Below, piece after piece: positions 4,388 through 32,653 of a stretch of DNA of 36,014 nt (position 1 is its first letter; the number at the start of each line of letters is the position of its first letter). The notes under the pieces were generated by a model. The model did not search any database. It saw nothing but the letters and a program-made list of their open reading frames with translations, and was not told where the DNA came from. Location of the stretch: assembly GCA_017549565.1 (NCBI GenBank), contig JAFYUI010000023.1, forward strand, positions 1 through 36,014, written 5' to 3'. The stretch is from Clostridia bacterium. GTDB taxonomy: Bacteria > Bacillota > Clostridia > Oscillospirales > Acutalibacteraceae. Made by a program: the position numbers and the translations under genes.

Positions 4388-5092
4388 ATGCTTAAAAAGA
4401 ACGAAAACCGCATTTTGCCACAGCATATTGCAATTATTATGGACGGTAACGGCCGTTGGGCAAAGAAAAAGGGGCTTCCCCGCACCGCAGGTCACATTGC
4501 GGGGGCAAAAACCTTTAAAAACATTGCGAGATATTGCAACAAAATTGGTCTTAAATATTTAACGGTTTATGCCTTTTCCACGGAAAATTGGAAAAGACCT
4601 GCCGACGAGGTAGAAGGTATTATGAACCTGCTTCGTGACTATTTAAAGGATGCCGAAAATTTTAAGGATGAAAACATTCGCGTGCGTTTTATTGGCGACC
4701 GTACACCTTTGGCGGACGATATTAAAGAGCTTATGGCGAAAAACGAAAACGATTCTAAAAACGCCACAGGTCTTACTTTGTACATTGCAATAAACTATGG
4801 CGGACGGGATGAAATTGTAAAAGCGGCGCAAAAAATTGTGGATAGCGGTATAAAGGCGGATGAAATTAACGAGCAGTTAATTTCAGATATGCTTTACACC
4901 TGTGACTGCCCCGACCCTGATTTTATAATTCGCCCAAGCGGTGAATACCGCATTTCAAATTATCTTATTTGGCAGTCGGCTTATTCTGAATTTTGGTATT
5001 CTGACATTTTGTGGCCCGACTTTACCGAAAAGCATTTAGAAAAAGCAATAGCGGATTTTAACAAACGAAACCGCCGTTTTGGAGGAATTTAA
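4388..5092 (+). CDS. uppS: Isoprenyl transferase (undecaprenyl diphosphate synthase)
   Basis: Condenses isopentenyl diphosphate units onto farnesyl diphosphate with cis geometry to make the C55 carrier for peptidoglycan. IIMDGNGRWAK near residues 16-26 contains the catalytic Asp and substrate-binding residues. FSTENWKRP near 60 and the C-terminal RPSGEYRISNYLIWQSAYSE block with WPDF are the other family signatures. The usual RTSGE/RTGGE reads RPSGE here, a conservative variant. 234 residues is normal. AAGGTGA precedes the ATG. Four bases after its stop lies cdsA, and dxr two genes on provides isoprenoid precursor. Confidence 0.95.
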   Translation: MLKKNENRILPQHIAIIMDGNGRWAKKKGLPRTAGHIAGAKTFKNIARYCNKIGLKYLTVYAFSTENWKRPADEVEGIMNLLRDYLKDAENFKDENIRVRFIGDRTPLADDIKELMAKNENDSKNATGLTLYIAINYGGRDEIVKAAQKIVDSGIKADEINEQLISDMLYTCDCPDPDFIIRPSGEYRISNYLIWQSAYSEFWYSDILWPDFTEKHLEKAIADFNKRNRRFGGI

Positions 5093-20989: not shown

Positions 20990-21018
20990 ATTATATATTA
21001 AAAGGATGCATTTGTCAA
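20990..21018 (-). promoter_or_regulatory. Sigma-A promoter for mntP
   Basis: Minus strand: -35 TTGACA (21013-21018), 17-base spacer, -10 TATAAT (20990-20995). Both hexamers match consensus perfectly. The -35 overlaps the spoVFB stop codon region, so mntP can be expressed independently of sporulation. Confidence 0.85.
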
Positions 21019-21587
21019 ATAATTACGGGCTCGATTTGCTTGCCCAAAAGTGCCGCTTCAACAGTCTCGGGTATAAGTGAAAAGTCACATATCATTGAGT
21101 TATTTTTGTTTTTTGCATCATCTTGGCGATAGGGCACAAAGAAGATGTTTTTGGTGTTGTGTAAAAGCCCAATGTTTTTGGCACTGCCGCCCAAGGCATC
21201 GTTGGTGGCAACACCTAAAACCACGGGCTTGTTGTTGCGAAGGTGGGCTTTAATTGCCATCGTGACAGCGGTATCGGTAATGCCCATTGCGTGCTTTGAA
21301 AGTGTGTTGCCTGTAACAGGGGCAACCACCAAAATGTCTAAAAGGTTTTTGGGGCCTATCGGCTCGGCACCGACAATGTCGTGTATAACCTTTTCACCGC
21401 ACAGGGCTTCAACCTTTTCTATCAGGTCTTGGGCTTTGAAAAAACGGGTGTCGGTGTTATAAACCATTTCCGACATAATGGGTTTTATTTTAATCGGCAG
21501 TTTTGAAAGTGTCTCTAAAGCTGAAAGAGAAGCTTTAAGGGTACAAAACGAGCCGGTGAAAGCATACCCCAAAGTTATATTTTCCAT
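21015..21587 (-). CDS. spoVFB: Dipicolinate synthase subunit B
   Basis: A 190-residue flavoprotein-like subunit of dipicolinate synthase, which with SpoVFA makes the spore-core dipicolinic acid from a dihydrodipicolinate-pathway intermediate in the mother cell. Recognisable family stretches are GYAFTGSFCTLKASLSALE near the N-terminus, VVAPVTGNTLSKHAMGITD in the middle, and KPVVLGVATNDALGGSAKN. GGAGAAA precedes the ATG, 13 bases after the spoVFA stop. Its presence indicates an endospore-forming organism. Likely expressed from the sigma-K-like promoter ahead of spoVFA. Confidence 0.94.
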   Translation of the reverse strand: MENITLGYAFTGSFCTLKASLSALETLSKLPIKIKPIMSEMVYNTDTRFFKAQDLIEKVEALCGEKVIHDIVGAEPIGPKNLLDILVVAPVTGNTLSKHAMGITDTAVTMAIKAHLRNNKPVVLGVATNDALGGSAKNIGLLHNTKNIFFVPYRQDDAKNKNNSMICDFSLIPETVEAALLGKQIEPVII

Positions 21588-21600
21588 AAAATTTCTCCAA

Positions 21601-22398
21601 TCAGTTGTGGTGTTTAATAATTTCCGTCAATGTTTTTGCTAAAATCTTGCCTGCGGTTTCGGGTGCGGTAACCCCCGGTATACCGCCCGGCTTAAAGGCC
21701 TTAAAGCCAAGTGTGGTGGCATAGCTTAAATCAAAACCGCCCTTGCTTGAAAGGTCAATCAGTAAATCAGCGGGGCAGTTTTCAAGGGTTTTGTCTGACA
21801 AAACGGGAAAATCAACCGTGTTAAAAATTATATTAAAGTCAAGGTACATATCCCCCAGCTTTTCGGTATTTATGTATTTAAAACCTAAAGCCGAAAGGGT
21901 TGCAAAATCCTTGGGTTTTCGGGCGCTTACGGTAACATCGGCACCAAGCGCTTTAAGGCGGTCGGCCATAATTTTACCAACCCTGCCATAGCCAATAACC
22001 AACACCTTGCTTTGCCAAAGGGTGTAATCGGTTTCGCGAATGGCAATTTCAATAGCGCCCTCGGCTGTGGGCACGGCATTTAGCAGTGAAAAGCTGTCAA
22101 GGGTGTTGTAGTCGATAAAATTTTTACCCAAAAATTTATAATTACAGCATAAAACAAGCTGGTTTTTAATTTGCGCTTCAATATCGTTTAAATAAATTTT
22201 TCGGTTGGTAAGTGGGCAAAAAACGGTTTGACTGTCCTTTGTGGTGGGTACAGGAAAAACTATCACATCGCTTTTTTCAATATCCGCACGGTCATCGGGA
22301 AAAAGTCCAAGCGTATCGACATAAAAATTTTCCTTTTCAAAATGGTTTTTAACAATTTTAAGCCGTCTGTCTCCGCCCACAATTAAAATTCGTTTCAT
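21601..22398 (-). CDS. spoVFA: Dipicolinate synthase subunit A
   Basis: A 265-residue protein with an N-terminal subdomain (ILIVGGDRRLKIVKNHF) and a C-terminal Rossmann NAD(P)-binding domain with KVLVIGYGRVGKIMADRLKA (residues ~133-152), then GGIPGVTAPETAGKI near the end. This matches DpaA/SpoVFA, the dehydrogenase-like subunit of dipicolinate synthase, acting in the mother cell. ATG 22398 has GGGTGA 5 bases upstream; a TTG one codon earlier is not needed. It lies just after the cca terminator, and a sigma-K-type promoter overlaps that terminator. Confidence 0.93.
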   Translation of the reverse strand: MKRILIVGGDRRLKIVKNHFEKENFYVDTLGLFPDDRADIEKSDVIVFPVPTTKDSQTVFCPLTNRKIYLNDIEAQIKNQLVLCCNYKFLGKNFIDYNTLDSFSLLNAVPTAEGAIEIAIRETDYTLWQSKVLVIGYGRVGKIMADRLKALGADVTVSARKPKDFATLSALGFKYINTEKLGDMYLDFNIIFNTVDFPVLSDKTLENCPADLLIDLSSKGGFDLSYATTLGFKAFKPGGIPGVTAPETAGKILAKTLTEIIKHHN

Positions 22399-22410
22399 CA
22401 AATCACCCGC

Positions 22411-29351: not shown

Positions 29352-31232
29352 ATGCAGTATAAAATTCAAAACGGCGTGGTTGAGCTTTCGGGTCAACCAA
29401 TTTTAAAGCAAATTGATTTTGAAATTAACGATAACAGTAAAATTGCAGTTGTAGGCCGAAACGGTTGCGGCAAAACCACACTGCTTAAACTTATTTCGGG
29501 TGAATATTCGATAGTTAAAAAAGACAGCGACAAGGAAAGTTTTATTGCAGTGTCGGGTAATGTCAGTATTGGCTTTTTGTCGCAAATGACCTTTGAGGAT
29601 GATAACCGCACTCTACTTGAAGAGGTGCGCTCGGCTTACCGTGAAATTCTTGACCTTAAAGAAAAGGTATATATTGCCGAAAACAAAATGCGTGAGTCGG
29701 GTGACGAAAACGACATTAAAGAATACACCAATTTGCTTGATACCCTAACGAATTTGGGCGGTTTTTATTTTGAAAAGGAATATGAAGCCGCAATTAAAAA
29801 ATTTGGCTTTTCGGAAGAGGAAAAGCACCGCAAATTATATGAATTTTCGGGCGGTCAGCGCACAAAAATTGCATTTTTAAAGCTGCTTTTGTCAAAGCCC
29901 GATATTCTTTTATTGGATGAGCCGACAAACCACCTTGACATTGAGTCGGTGCAGTGGCTTGAAGAATATTTAAAAAATTATAAAAAAGCATTTGTTGTGG
30001 TATCGCACGACAGAATGTTTTTAGATAATGTTGCCACCACGGTTTATGAAATTGAAAATGGCAAAACCCACAAATATGTTGGAAATTATACTCGCTTTGC
30101 CGAGCTTAAAAAAGAACGCCGCGCTTTACAGCTTAAGGAATATGAAGCACAGCAAAAAGAAATTGAAAGATTAGAGGATTTGGTTGACCGTTTTCGTTAT
30201 AAGGCGACAAAGGCGGCAATGGCACAGTCAAAAATTAAACAGCTTGAAAAAATGGAGCTTGTTGATGCTCCCGAAAGGGAAGACCTTTCGGTTTTTCATT
30301 TCGATTTAACACCCATTGATATTGGTGTTAAGGATGTGCTTTCGGTAAAAGATTTAAAAATTGGTTACGACAGCGTTTTATCAACCGTTTCACTCGAAAT
30401 GAAACGGGGAGACAAGGTTGGTATTATAGGCGGTAACGGACTTGGCAAATCAACCTTTATTAAAACACTTGTGGGTGAGACCACAAAGCTTGGCGGTGAA
30501 ATTAAATTCGGCCCCCGTGTAAGTGTTGGCTATTTTGACCAACAAATGGCGCAGTATTCGACAATCGACACTATTTTAGATGATTATATGAAGGCATATC
30601 CTGCCTTAACCCCCTTTGAAGCACGGTGTGATTTGGGTGCGTTTTTGTTTACGGGAGAGGATGTTTTTAAAACGGTTAATATGCTGTCGGGTGGCGAGCG
30701 TGTTCGCTTGGCGCTTTGTAAAATTTTTAAAAAGCGACCAAACTTTTTAATTTTGGACGAGCCCACAAACCACATGGACATTGCTTCAAAGGAAGCACTT
30801 GAAGAAATGCTGCAAAATTTTGAAGGTACGCTTTTGTTTGTTTCGCACGACCGTTATTTTATTAAAGAAATTTCAAATTCGCTTTTAAATTTCACCGAAA
30901 ACGGCGTTGAATTTTATGGTTATGGCTATCAGCAATACCTTGAAAAGCAAAAAACCGCAAAGCCGGTTTTAAATGATGCCTTACAAAAACCAAAAGAAAA
31001 GAAAGCATATACAACCCCTTTAAAAGAAAAGGCCAAAAAAGAAAAAGCAATTAAAAAATGCGAAGAAAAAATTGCCAAGCTTGAAGAAGAATTGGCTTTA
31101 ATTGAAAGTGAACTTTCAAAGGAAGAAAATATATCAAACTATGTAAAGCTGGGCGAGCTTAACACCCGCCAAGCTGAGATAGAGGAAGAGCTTTTAATCA
31201 CAATGGAAGAGTGGGAAAACCTTTTTGGATGA
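29352..31232 (+). CDS. ABC-F family ATPase (ribosome-associated, no membrane domain)
   Basis: A 626-residue protein of two ATPase cassettes. Cassette 1 has Walker A GRNGCGKTT (35-43), signature FSGGQRTK and Walker B ILLLDEPTNHLD. Cassette 2 has GGNGLGKST, LSGGERVR and FLILDEPTNHMD. The linker (~245-300) is a charged helical arm, and the C-terminus (~540-626) is a Lys/Glu-rich coiled coil. There are no membrane helices, so it belongs to ABC-F, whose members act on translating ribosomes (EttA-, Uup-, YdiF-like) or protect against antibiotics. The C-terminal coiled coil resembles Uup/YdiF types. Subclass and resistance role cannot be decided by eye. Confidence 0.93.
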   Translation: MQYKIQNGVVELSGQPILKQIDFEINDNSKIAVVGRNGCGKTTLLKLISGEYSIVKKDSDKESFIAVSGNVSIGFLSQMTFEDDNRTLLEEVRSAYREILDLKEKVYIAENKMRESGDENDIKEYTNLLDTLTNLGGFYFEKEYEAAIKKFGFSEEEKHRKLYEFSGGQRTKIAFLKLLLSKPDILLLDEPTNHLDIESVQWLEEYLKNYKKAFVVVSHDRMFLDNVATTVYEIENGKTHKYVGNYTRFAELKKERRALQLKEYEAQQKEIERLEDLVDRFRYKATKAAMAQSKIKQLEKMELVDAPEREDLSVFHFDLTPIDIGVKDVLSVKDLKIGYDSVLSTVSLEMKRGDKVGIIGGNGLGKSTFIKTLVGETTKLGGEIKFGPRVSVGYFDQQMAQYSTIDTILDDYMKAYPALTPFEARCDLGAFLFTGEDVFKTVNMLSGGERVRLALCKIFKKRPNFLILDEPTNHMDIASKEALEEMLQNFEGTLLFVSHDRYFIKEISNSLLNFTENGVEFYGYGYQQYLEKQKTAKPVLNDALQKPKEKKAYTTPLKEKAKKEKAIKKCEEKIAKLEEELALIESELSKEENISNYVKLGELNTRQAEIEEELLITMEEWENLFG

Positions 31233-31236
31233 CCGC

Positions 31237-31265
31237 TTGACAATGGCTATTTTAGGTGTTAAAAT
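31237..31265 (+). promoter_or_regulatory. Sigma-A promoter for the cobalamin riboswitch operon
   Basis: -35 TTGACA (31237-31242), 17-base spacer, -10 TAAAAT (31260-31265), starting 5 bases after the ABC-F stop. Transcription should begin near 31272, just before the aptamer. Confidence 0.8.
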
Positions 31266-31281
31266 TTATAGGCAAAGCAAA

Positions 31282-31459
31282 CCCAAAAGTGAAAGGTTTT
31301 AACCTTTCTTAAACTGGAATAGGGGTGAAAATCCCCTGCGAACTCGTCGCCGTAATTTGCGTTAAATCCTTTCAATATGTCACTGCCGCAAGGTGGGAAG
31401 GCGAAAGGATAGGGTAACCCGAAACACCCGCGCAATAAGTCGGAATACGGGCTTTTGGT
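31282..31459 (+). ncRNA. Cobalamin (B12) riboswitch aptamer
   Basis: A ~178-base leader element. The closing stem is CCAAAAG (31283-31289) with CTTTTGG (31452-31458). Inside are a hairpin AAAGGTTTTAACCTTT, then the core ACTGGAATAGGGGTGAAAAT with a following TCCCC arm, GTCGCCG, then GTCACTGCCGCAAGGTGGGA and finally a B12-box-like AAGTCGGAATACGGGC (31437-31452). These match the order of conserved blocks in the Rfam cobalamin riboswitch class. The downstream genes look like vitamin uptake, which fits repression by B12. The exact subclass (adenosyl- versus aquo/methyl-cobalamin) cannot be read by eye. Confidence 0.88.
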
Positions 31460-31463
31460 GGTT

Positions 31464-31592
31464 AATACAAATGTGTCACGAGTAATTGACGGTGTATTGT
31501 GCTTAAGTGGCCTTGTATTGTGGCGCACTTTTTGTACTTATATCTCCTTTTGTATTGATATTGTTTTGACAACAATACAAAAGGAGTTTTTT
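31464..31592 (+). terminator. Riboswitch expression platform: terminator that also contains the ribosome site
   Basis: CTCCTTTTGTATTG (31544-31557) pairs perfectly with CAATACAAAAGGAG (31573-31586), followed by T6. The 3' arm holds the AAAAGGAG ribosome site of the next gene. Competing copies of the same words exist upstream: AATACAAA (31464-31471) and TTGTATTG (31513-31520). A switch between alternative stems is therefore possible. The 363 bases between the ABC-F gene and the lipoprotein are fully occupied by promoter, aptamer and this platform. Confidence 0.8.
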
Positions 31593-31595
31593 ATT

Positions 31596-32015
31596 TTGAA
31601 AAACAAAAGAATTTTAAAGAAAATCTTGGCACTTACCCTTGTGGTTTTAATGGCGGTGTTCACCCTTGCCGCTTGCCAAAGTGCTGACACAAATTCCGAT
31701 AATTTATCGGGCAGTGTGGAAAGTAAAACAATCACCATTACAGTAACGGTGGTTGCAAAGGACAAAACTGAAAAGGTGTTTAATATCGAAACCGATAAGA
31801 AAACGCTTGGTGATGCACTTTTCGAGCAGGGCTTGGTTAAAGAAAGCGAATATAAATCTGGATTTTACAGCCATATCGACGGTGCTCGTGCGGATTATAC
31901 CCTTGACAAATGCTGGTGGTCCTTTACAAAGGGTGGCGAAACCGTAATGGTTGGTGCAAACGATTTAAAAATAGCAGATGGTGATAAATTTGAAATCACA
32001 AACACGCCGGCTTAA
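31596..32015 (+). CDS. DUF4430 (transcobalamin-like C-terminal domain) lipoprotein
   Basis: A 139-residue lipoprotein: basic N-terminus, hydrophobic segment, lipobox TLAAC with Cys27, a Ser/Asp-rich linker, and one DUF4430-type domain (~residues 47-139). Family features visible are TITITVTVVAKDKTEKVFNI, the TLGDALFEQGLV helix, SGFYSHIDGARADY, CWWSFTKGGE and a [15 protein letters not shown] strand. This fold resembles the C-terminal domain of intrinsic factor and transcobalamin, which caps vitamin B12. It follows a cobalamin riboswitch and overlaps an ECF S-component gene, so a B12-capturing role on the cell surface is the natural hypothesis. TTG start, 9 bases after AAAAGGAG; longer versions would run back through the terminator stem. 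Confidence 0.83.
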   Translation: MKNKRILKKILALTLVVLMAVFTLAACQSADTNSDNLSGSVESKTITITVTVVAKDKTEKVFNIETDKKTLGDALFEQGLVKESEYKSGFYSHIDGARADYTLDKCWWSFTKGGETVMVGANDLKIADGDKFEITNTPA

Positions 32016-32505
32016 ATTAGTCGAGCTTTTAATACTTGTTTTAATGGGCGTTTTAATGTATGTTTCACAGGTTATAATGGCGCCCTTGACTAATATTGAA
32101 TTAGTCAGCTTTTTAATTATAATAGTTGCTCGGCGGTTTGGCGTTAAGTCTTTAATATCGGTTTATATTTTCGCTTTTTTAGAAATTATGACCTATGGCT
32201 TTCATATATGGTCAATAAATTATCTTTATGTTTGGGCAATATTAGTGCTTATTGTTCTTCCTTTAAGGAAAATTGACAATGTGTTTTTGTATACTGTTGT
32301 TTCGGGGATATTTGGTATAGCTTTCGGCACACTTTGTTCAATTCCTTATTTTGTAATGGGCGGGTTTTCAATGGGTGTTGCGTATATAATAAGCGGCTTT
32401 TCGTTTGATATTCCTCATTGTGTGGGCAATATTGTTTTAACTGCAATTTTGTATATTCCAATCACTAAAGCGTTTAGTTACATACTAAATAAAACCCTTA
32501 AATAA
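31990..32505 (+). CDS. ECF transporter S component, predicted cobalamin-specific
   Basis: About 171 residues: a short basic N-terminus (SQTRRLK), then roughly five to six membrane helices, of the size and hydrophobicity of ECF-type vitamin-binding S subunits. Family-like features are [20 protein letters not shown] near the N-terminus and a conserved-looking [20 protein letters not shown] block. No EcfA/EcfT genes are adjacent, consistent with a group II system sharing an energy module encoded elsewhere. Start is uncertain: TTG 31990 has GGTGA 5 bases upstream; ATG 31978 and GTG 31981 lack one. All overlap the lipoprotein gene, so translation is coupled. The substrate inference comes from the riboswitch. 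Confidence 0.78.
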
Positions 32506-32515
32506 GCAAATTCTC

Positions 32516-32560
32516 GCGGCAGTAGAGTTGATTTTTAAAACTCTACTGCCGCACTCTTTT
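32516..32560 (+). terminator. Intrinsic terminator of the B12-uptake operon
   Basis: GCGGCAGTAGAGTT (32516-32529) pairs perfectly with AACTCTACTGCCGC (32539-32552) around a 9-base loop, with a T-containing tail (ACTCTTTTG). Confidence 0.8.
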
Positions 32561-32589
32561 GAATTAGAGAGGCAAAAACTGTCAGTAGG

Positions 32590-32619
32590 TTGTATTATTT
32601 CCACCAACATGGCTATAAT
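32590..32619 (+). promoter_or_regulatory. Sigma-A promoter for degV
   Basis: -35 TTGTAT (32590-32595), 18-base spacer, perfect -10 TATAAT (32614-32619). GGAGG follows at 32638. Confidence 0.65.
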
Positions 32620-32653
32620 CTTGGTATCATGTTTTTTGGAGGCATTTTTGCAA

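Follow-up and report, generated by a model that had tools for sequence, protein, structure and literature searches.

The window (the whole stretch of DNA that was analysed, 36,014 nucleotides) belongs to a Clostridia bacterium whose genome assembly is 1.49 Mb in size and 96% complete. The + strand carries a promoter, an aptamer, a hairpin, a lipoprotein ORF and a membrane-protein ORF, flanked by an ABC-F gene that ends at position 31232 and by a degV-family gene. The features of the locus are as follows.

31237..31265, + strand: sigma-70-type promoter, TTGACA-N17-TAAAAT, with TG before the −10 sequence (11/12 consensus matches; consensus match only)
31270..31470, + strand: cobalamin riboswitch aptamer RF00174 (80.6 bits, E 1.6e-18)
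31461..31471, + strand: predicted antiterminator helix, 5' strand, at the 3' end of the aptamer (from folding only)
31545..31597, + strand: predicted expression platform, a terminator-like hairpin (31545-31585) plus a U-run to 31597 (from folding; mechanism proposed)
31596..32015, + strand: CbrS-like lipoprotein, 139 aa, TTG start, lipobox Cys27, DUF4430 at residues 70-135 (Pfam; conserved partner of CbrT-like genes)
31978..32505, + strand: CbrT-like ECF S component, 175-aa membrane protein (6fnp_A, E 5.3e-13; 45-sequence profile, E 8.7e-24)

The lipoprotein gene is located directly upstream of the cbrT-like gene, and the two ORFs overlap by 38 nt. Among the matches listed, the closest named relatives were Clostridia MAGs, whose S components showed 92%, 89% and 84% identity with that of the window; the records of the latter two are titled deer colon and goat cecum, respectively.

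A preliminary description of this locus had proposed a promoter, a cobalamin aptamer and a terminator upstream of the two genes, and all three were recovered. The promoter, which lies shortly after the ABC-F stop codon, was the best of seven promoter-like sites found in 31150-32650 (shuffled sequences gave a mean of 3.9 and an sd of 2.0). The Rfam covariance model of RF00174 was matched over its full length (1-189) with 80.6 bits, the gathering score being 31.5. A non-B12 riboswitch was ruled out because Rfam gave RF00174 alone in the window, and a genome search showed that the aptamer at 31270-31470 is the one copy of RF00174 in the host. Downstream of the aptamer, folding revealed an A/U-rich hairpin at 31545-31585 followed by TTTTTTATTTT, with a fold z-score of −3.7 for 31460-31610. 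This hairpin was absent from the list of a fixed terminator scan, which probably missed it because the stem is A/U-rich.

In MFE folds of truncated transcripts ending at 31560-31580, positions 31461-31471 paired with 31549-31559. Once the 3' arm of the hairpin was transcribed, it took over 31545-31557 as its partner in MFE folds computed with no ligand. The antiterminator and terminator helices were mutually exclusive in folding. The 3' arm contains most of the Shine-Dalgarno sequence AGGAG (31582-31586), nine bases 5' of the TTG start. The bases 31578-31584 had an unpaired probability of 0.00, and the U-run paired with the first codons in the full-length fold. Since most of the Shine-Dalgarno sequence lies within the 3' arm and the U-run lies behind it, one hairpin could both terminate transcription and mask the ribosome site.

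The same description had assigned to the two ORFs a lipoprotein with one DUF4430 domain and an overlapping ECF S-type membrane protein, and both assignments agreed with the searches. DUF4430 (PF14478) was the sole match above the Pfam cut-off in the 139-aa protein (31 bits against 23.8), and the lipoprotein gene at 31596-32015 was the one copy of DUF4430 in the host genome. An N-terminal membrane anchor was judged by eye from the lipobox LAAC containing Cys27. Neither Pfam nor NCBIfam matched the membrane-protein ORF at 31978-32505 at E values up to 0.1. When the membrane protein was compared by phmmer with all PDB sequences up to E 10, a single match, 6fnp_A, was obtained (E 5.3e-13). 6FNP is the ECF-CbrT B12 transporter of Lactobacillus delbrueckii, deposited with PMC5997447. 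A profile of 45 S-component sequences matched 6fnp_A with E 8.7e-24, and its other two matches in PDB had E values of 1.6 and 2.3. An S component for another vitamin was rejected, CbrT being the sole S-component match among PDB chains. These comparisons identify the membrane protein as a CbrT homologue and support its assignment as an ECF B12 S component.

For docking on EcfT, S components of the CbrT kind use an AxxxA motif in TM1. One EcfT (PF02361) was found in the host genome, and its neighbours, identified by eye, were two EcfA-type ATPase frames, the outer of which runs off the stretch, and truA. BtuCDF was ruled out as the B12 importer of the host because no FecCD/BtuC-type permease was matched in the host genome. 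A search of the host genome for four B12-enzyme families (B12-binding PF02310, NrdJ, RTPR and QueG) and for PduO adenosyltransferase gave no match, and yet the only cobalamin riboswitch of the host controls an importer pair. NrdJ, RTPR, QueG and PduO gave no match in any of the five pair-bearing relatives searched. PF02310 was also lacking in one of these (G179) and was found in the other four.

The occurrence of the gene pair was surveyed at the order level in 245 genomes. DUF4430 was found at E up to 0.001 in 176 genomes (170 over its cut-off), RF00174 in 155 (142 over its cut-off) and a homologue of the S component in 95, with 97 matches. All 97 S matches (L033-L129), including the window's own, were fetched and examined with HMMs built for this analysis. 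The S frame was found in 96 of the 97 loci, and a DUF4430 frame on the same strand lay directly upstream in 80, the window's own included. For three clear CbrT-like genes, the stretch seen contained no DUF4430 partner. The first (L098, 3475-3993) is located behind a cyclophilin-like gene; the second (L109) has an interrupted S frame and no DUF4430 within its stretch; and the third (L117) is a second copy in its genome (G190), whose contig ends 700 bases away with no DUF4430 in between. L115, in which the DUF4430 frame overlaps a long S frame, was excluded from the pair count. The S frame of L129 was not confirmed, those of L116 and L118 were partial, and L119, L120, L124 and L127 had weak S matches. 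In the six remaining loci (L121-L123, L125, L126 and L128), DUF4430 was found 2.0-2.6 kb upstream. L122 (254-4090) contains a dedicated ECF operon with the order DUF4430-EcfT-fused EcfAA-S (PF07155), in which EcfT was recognised by eye and had no Pfam match; the other five share the spacing only. A cobalamin riboswitch was located upstream on the same strand at a distance of approximately 2.5 kb in G118 (L121) and 11 kb in G178 (L123).

A second, named set consisted of the best 80 of at least 574 relative-encoding stretches (among at least 591 reported) and is not a random sample. In all 80 of these best-matching loci a DUF4430 gene was directly upstream, in 77 by the first rule and in three (L153, L169 and L173) with a longer frame overlap. 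Three of the 80 share their S frame with a locus of the order set. One record (L203) is titled Anaerolineaceae, perhaps owing to transfer or misbinning. These results indicate that the pair of DUF4430 and CbrT-like genes recurs in related bacteria.

Regulation by B12 was then compared across the pair loci. At Rfam gathering scores, a co-oriented B12 riboswitch was found immediately upstream in 39 of the 80 order-set pairs (37 RF00174 and 2 AdoCbl-II RF01689, the latter in L086 and L101) and in none of the 17 non-pair loci. When 15 of the 41 misses were rescanned permissively, six loci showed a cobalamin-clan match in the right place; one scored above the gathering score, which raised the total to 40/80, and the other five scored lower (E 0.0003 to 1). 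The remaining 40 pairs had no B12 riboswitch at the gathering score. In the named set, 18 of the 80 loci were scanned with Rfam, and RF00174 was upstream in 11 and no B12 riboswitch was found at the gathering score in seven. Other riboswitches or leaders were never upstream of a pair: a TPP switch was on the opposite strand in L109, and T-boxes were downstream in L080 and L086. The claim that the pair is under B12 regulation was thus borne out in that B12 riboswitches were the sole class found upstream and co-oriented in the loci scanned, but not for about half of the pairs, which had none at the cut-off. Simple B12-box matching found only three of the 80 loci and was useless as a detector. 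When the 150 best DUF4430 places of the order set (of which 51 come from genomes for which a riboswitch was listed) were compared with the 150 best RF00174 places, 35 were within 8 kb downstream on the same strand, two were upstream and none was on the opposite strand. In L162, a THF riboswitch (4573-4674) directly follows the DUF4430-CbrT pair.

In a phmmer search of PDB with the lipoprotein alone, 3u7z_A was matched with E 3.8e-15 and human transcobalamin-1 (4kki) with an insignificant E of 1.5. An alignment of 45 lipoproteins was then used, consisting of the window's sequence and those of 44 of the 77 rule-passing named loci (L130 was left out); the S-component profile was built from the same loci. 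The resulting profile matched 3u7z with E 6.4e-45 and 4kki with E 5.2e-5, in agreement with the proposal that DUF4430 resembles the C-terminal domain of transcobalamin and intrinsic factor. The stretch aligned to 4kki extends from a G-x-aromatic motif to a conserved W. G89, in the hairpin, was kept in 45/45 named-set sequences and in 40/41 order-set sequences (one gap), and W108 was kept in all sequences of both sets (45 and 41). Position 91 was Y, F or W in 44/45 and 32/41 sequences, respectively (M in nine of the latter). In transcobalamin-like domains, a hydrophobic position of the hairpin is described as stacking on the cobalamin base (Burroughs et al., PMC1796856), and position 91 may correspond to it. 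The aromatic on the ligand side is not kept throughout: in four lactobacillales partners, position 91 was I or V. These results support a relationship, as far as can be judged from sequence, between the lipoprotein domain and the C-terminal beta domain (beta-grasp, SLBB) of transcobalamin and intrinsic factor. With the beta domain of intrinsic factor, transcobalamin and haptocorrin, the lipoprotein shares sequence-detectable homology over the hairpin stretch; unlike these carriers, it is membrane-anchored, has a membrane S component as its partner and, in Pfam searches of its 139 aa, lacks the alpha6/alpha6 domain.

The closest known system is that of L. delbrueckii, in which the gene order is nrdJ-cbrS-cbrT-pduO (PMC5997447). 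In L. intestinalis, the order was nrdJ-DUF4430-ECF S-adenosyltransferase, and its S component matched 6fnp_A with E 5.9e-63. Because the two orders match, CbrS of L. delbrueckii is very probably a DUF4430 lipoprotein, and the lipoprotein of the window is very probably a clostridial CbrS. L. plantarum had the order nrdJ-adenosyltransferase-DUF4430-S. Plasmids of Enterococcus durans and Lactococcus cremoris carried a ribonucleotide reductase gene (annotated as B12-dependent in L. cremoris), an adenosyltransferase gene, DUF4430 and a divergent CbrT-like gene, and the E. durans copy of the last matched 6fnp_A with E 6.3e-21. The linkage with nrdJ and adenosyltransferase genes in lactobacillales provides a B12 context that is independent of the riboswitch argument. 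Four of the 21 distinct plasmid records with a match to either protein were examined. A compact plasmid module of ribonucleotide reductase, cobalamin adenosyltransferase, DUF4430 and CbrT-like S component was seen in Enterococcus, Lactococcus and lactobacilli (L245, 2245-6420; L246, 2245-6420; L247, 2667-6444; L248, 3276-6971). The pair of the window and CbrS-CbrT of L. delbrueckii have in common a homologous S component, an upstream gene that is very probably DUF4430, and genes for the ECF module that lie apart from the pair. They differ in that the window pair is controlled by a cobalamin riboswitch and that nrdJ and pduO are neither alongside it nor elsewhere in the genome; the linkage seen in lactobacilli, a contextual rather than a defining feature, was absent at the locus, where the neighbours are ABC-F and degV, and TIGR02504, TIGR02505 and PF01923 were absent from the host genome.

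Taken together, we consider it likely that the locus is a clostridial CbrS-CbrT operon for the salvage of vitamin B12 (corrinoid). When adenosylcobalamin is low, the leader is predicted by folding to form the antiterminator, so that both genes would be made; when it is plentiful, the aptamer would close and the hairpin would terminate transcription and hide the ribosome site. CbrT would bind B12 and dock on a shared ECF module (EcfA-EcfA'-EcfT) encoded elsewhere in the genome. Outside the membrane, the lipoprotein, a membrane-anchored single domain, would most likely bind B12 from its nucleotide/base side and present it to CbrT, or complete the binding site. The recurrent pairing of the two genes, often under B12 control, argues for such a role of the lipoprotein towards the substrate. 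Several observations weigh against this reading: the activity of L. delbrueckii ECF-CbrT without CbrS, the three CbrT-like genes lacking a DUF4430 neighbour, the missing alpha6/alpha6 domain, the variable residue at position 91, the lack of host matches to the B12-related families searched, and the pairs (40 in the order set, seven of 18 in the named set) that showed no B12 riboswitch at the gathering score.

It is rather unlikely that the S component alone binds B12 and that the lipoprotein aids the assembly or stability of CbrT or docks CbrT to another surface protein. Without CbrS, ECF-CbrT of L. delbrueckii bound B12 with nanomolar affinity, showed ATP-driven uptake of B12 in proteoliposomes and rescued the growth of an E. 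coli mutant (PMC5997447). Since it binds and transports B12 in this manner, the lipoprotein is not essential there. A helper function would also be consistent with the S components whose examined stretch lacked a DUF4430 partner, with the I or V at the ligand-side position of four lactobacillales partners, and with the variable anchor of the 80 order-set partners, which a loose regex that misfiles some (e.g. L047 and L137) divided into 41 lipoprotein-like, 37 single-TM-like and two neither. However, the domain is a homologue of the transcobalamin beta domain, G89 and W108 are kept almost throughout, and the pairing is recurrent and often B12-controlled, all of which weigh against a helper function.

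It is distinctly improbable that the corrinoid imported by the pair is not cobalamin but cobinamide or a different cobamide, and that the lipoprotein determines the preference. L. delbrueckii CbrT binds cobinamide with a Kd of 36 nM as well as CN-Cbl with a Kd of 9.2 nM (PMC5997447). The partner sequences are diverse (22-78% identity to the window's lipoprotein), and the lack of matches to the four B12-dependent enzyme families and PduO in the host genome is in line with this reading. Nothing positive speaks against it, and the riboswitch and the homology do not separate cobamides. A metal-binding (calcium-binding) function of the lipoprotein is hardly credible. The PDB entry of its close relative 3u7z bears the title putative metal binding protein RUMGNA_00854, and PMC3975891 mentions 14 calcium sites in that crystal, but then turns to calciums bound nonspecifically; the name was rejected as a function, and both context and homology point to B12.

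A tentative but quite possible arrangement is a split transcobalamin, in which the anchored DUF4430 protein would act as the beta domain and form an extracellular lid, CbrT would act as the missing alpha domain, and B12 would be sandwiched between the two during capture. In animals, intrinsic factor that has been cleaved keeps B12 clamped between its two halves, IF30 and IF20 (PMC6257451). If the split arrangement is true, it would provide an ECF importer that has a binding partner on the extracytoplasmic side.

In BtuG/BtuB of Bacteroides and in BtuF/BtuCD, an extracytoplasmic B12 protein feeds a B12 importer. The window pair would work like these if the hand-off is true, although the transporter classes are unrelated. 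The preliminary description had regarded the lipoprotein as a new module for the ECF class, but the idea of B12 capture is not new. Bacterial transcobalamin-like domains beside ECF genes were predicted to scavenge B12 in 2007 (Burroughs et al., PMC1796856), the gene name cbrS exists (PMC5997447), and a product name with this meaning is in use (PMC9963975). The transcobalamin-like clade of the SLBB superfamily in PMC1796856 shares with the window a secreted or anchored domain, similar to the transcobalamin C-terminal domain, beside ECF-type genes. The neighbours described for that clade are CbiO/CbiQ (ATPase/EcfT), whereas the neighbour at the present locus is a CbrT-type S component on its own; relatives also show the clade's arrangement as a dedicated operon, as in the DUF4430-EcfT-EcfAA-S operon of L122. 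In L. rhamnosus, the gene of the DUF4430 protein LGG_02295 (K8Q211; 14.3 kDa) lies close to rtpR, which codes for an AdoCbl-dependent reductase, and the protein carries the product name 'Additional lipoprotein component of putative cobalamin ECF transporter' (PMC9963975). This is the same role as that proposed for the window lipoprotein, in name only. In the proteomics of that study, LGG_02295 and RtpR both decreased under air (−1.8 and −2.0 log2, respectively). The main text of PMC5997447 gives cbrS once, as a gene in the cluster, and does not contain the word lipoprotein. In the available text of a 2025 paper on ECF-CbrT (PMC12075633), intrinsic factor appears as an analogy only, and cbrS, DUF4430 and lipoprotein are never used. 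No report of B12 binding by a bacterial DUF4430 protein was found in the open-licence literature, as judged mostly from listings. If the lipoprotein binds B12, ECF importers would gain a substrate-capture subunit like that of other ABC importers, and, in line with the 2007 proposal, a functional relative of the animal B12 carriers would exist in bacteria. With the pairing conserved in Clostridia and a crystal structure of a relative (3u7z) at hand, this prediction is open to direct tests.

Two further regions of the window were observed, both on the − strand. At 2317-2889, a gene for a PduL-type phosphate propanoyltransferase (PF06130) adjoins a HemN-like radical SAM gene. At 21018-22401, there is a dipicolinate synthase-like pair, consisting of a DpaA N-terminal domain protein and a flavoprotein, which hints at a sporulation trait in this small host genome.
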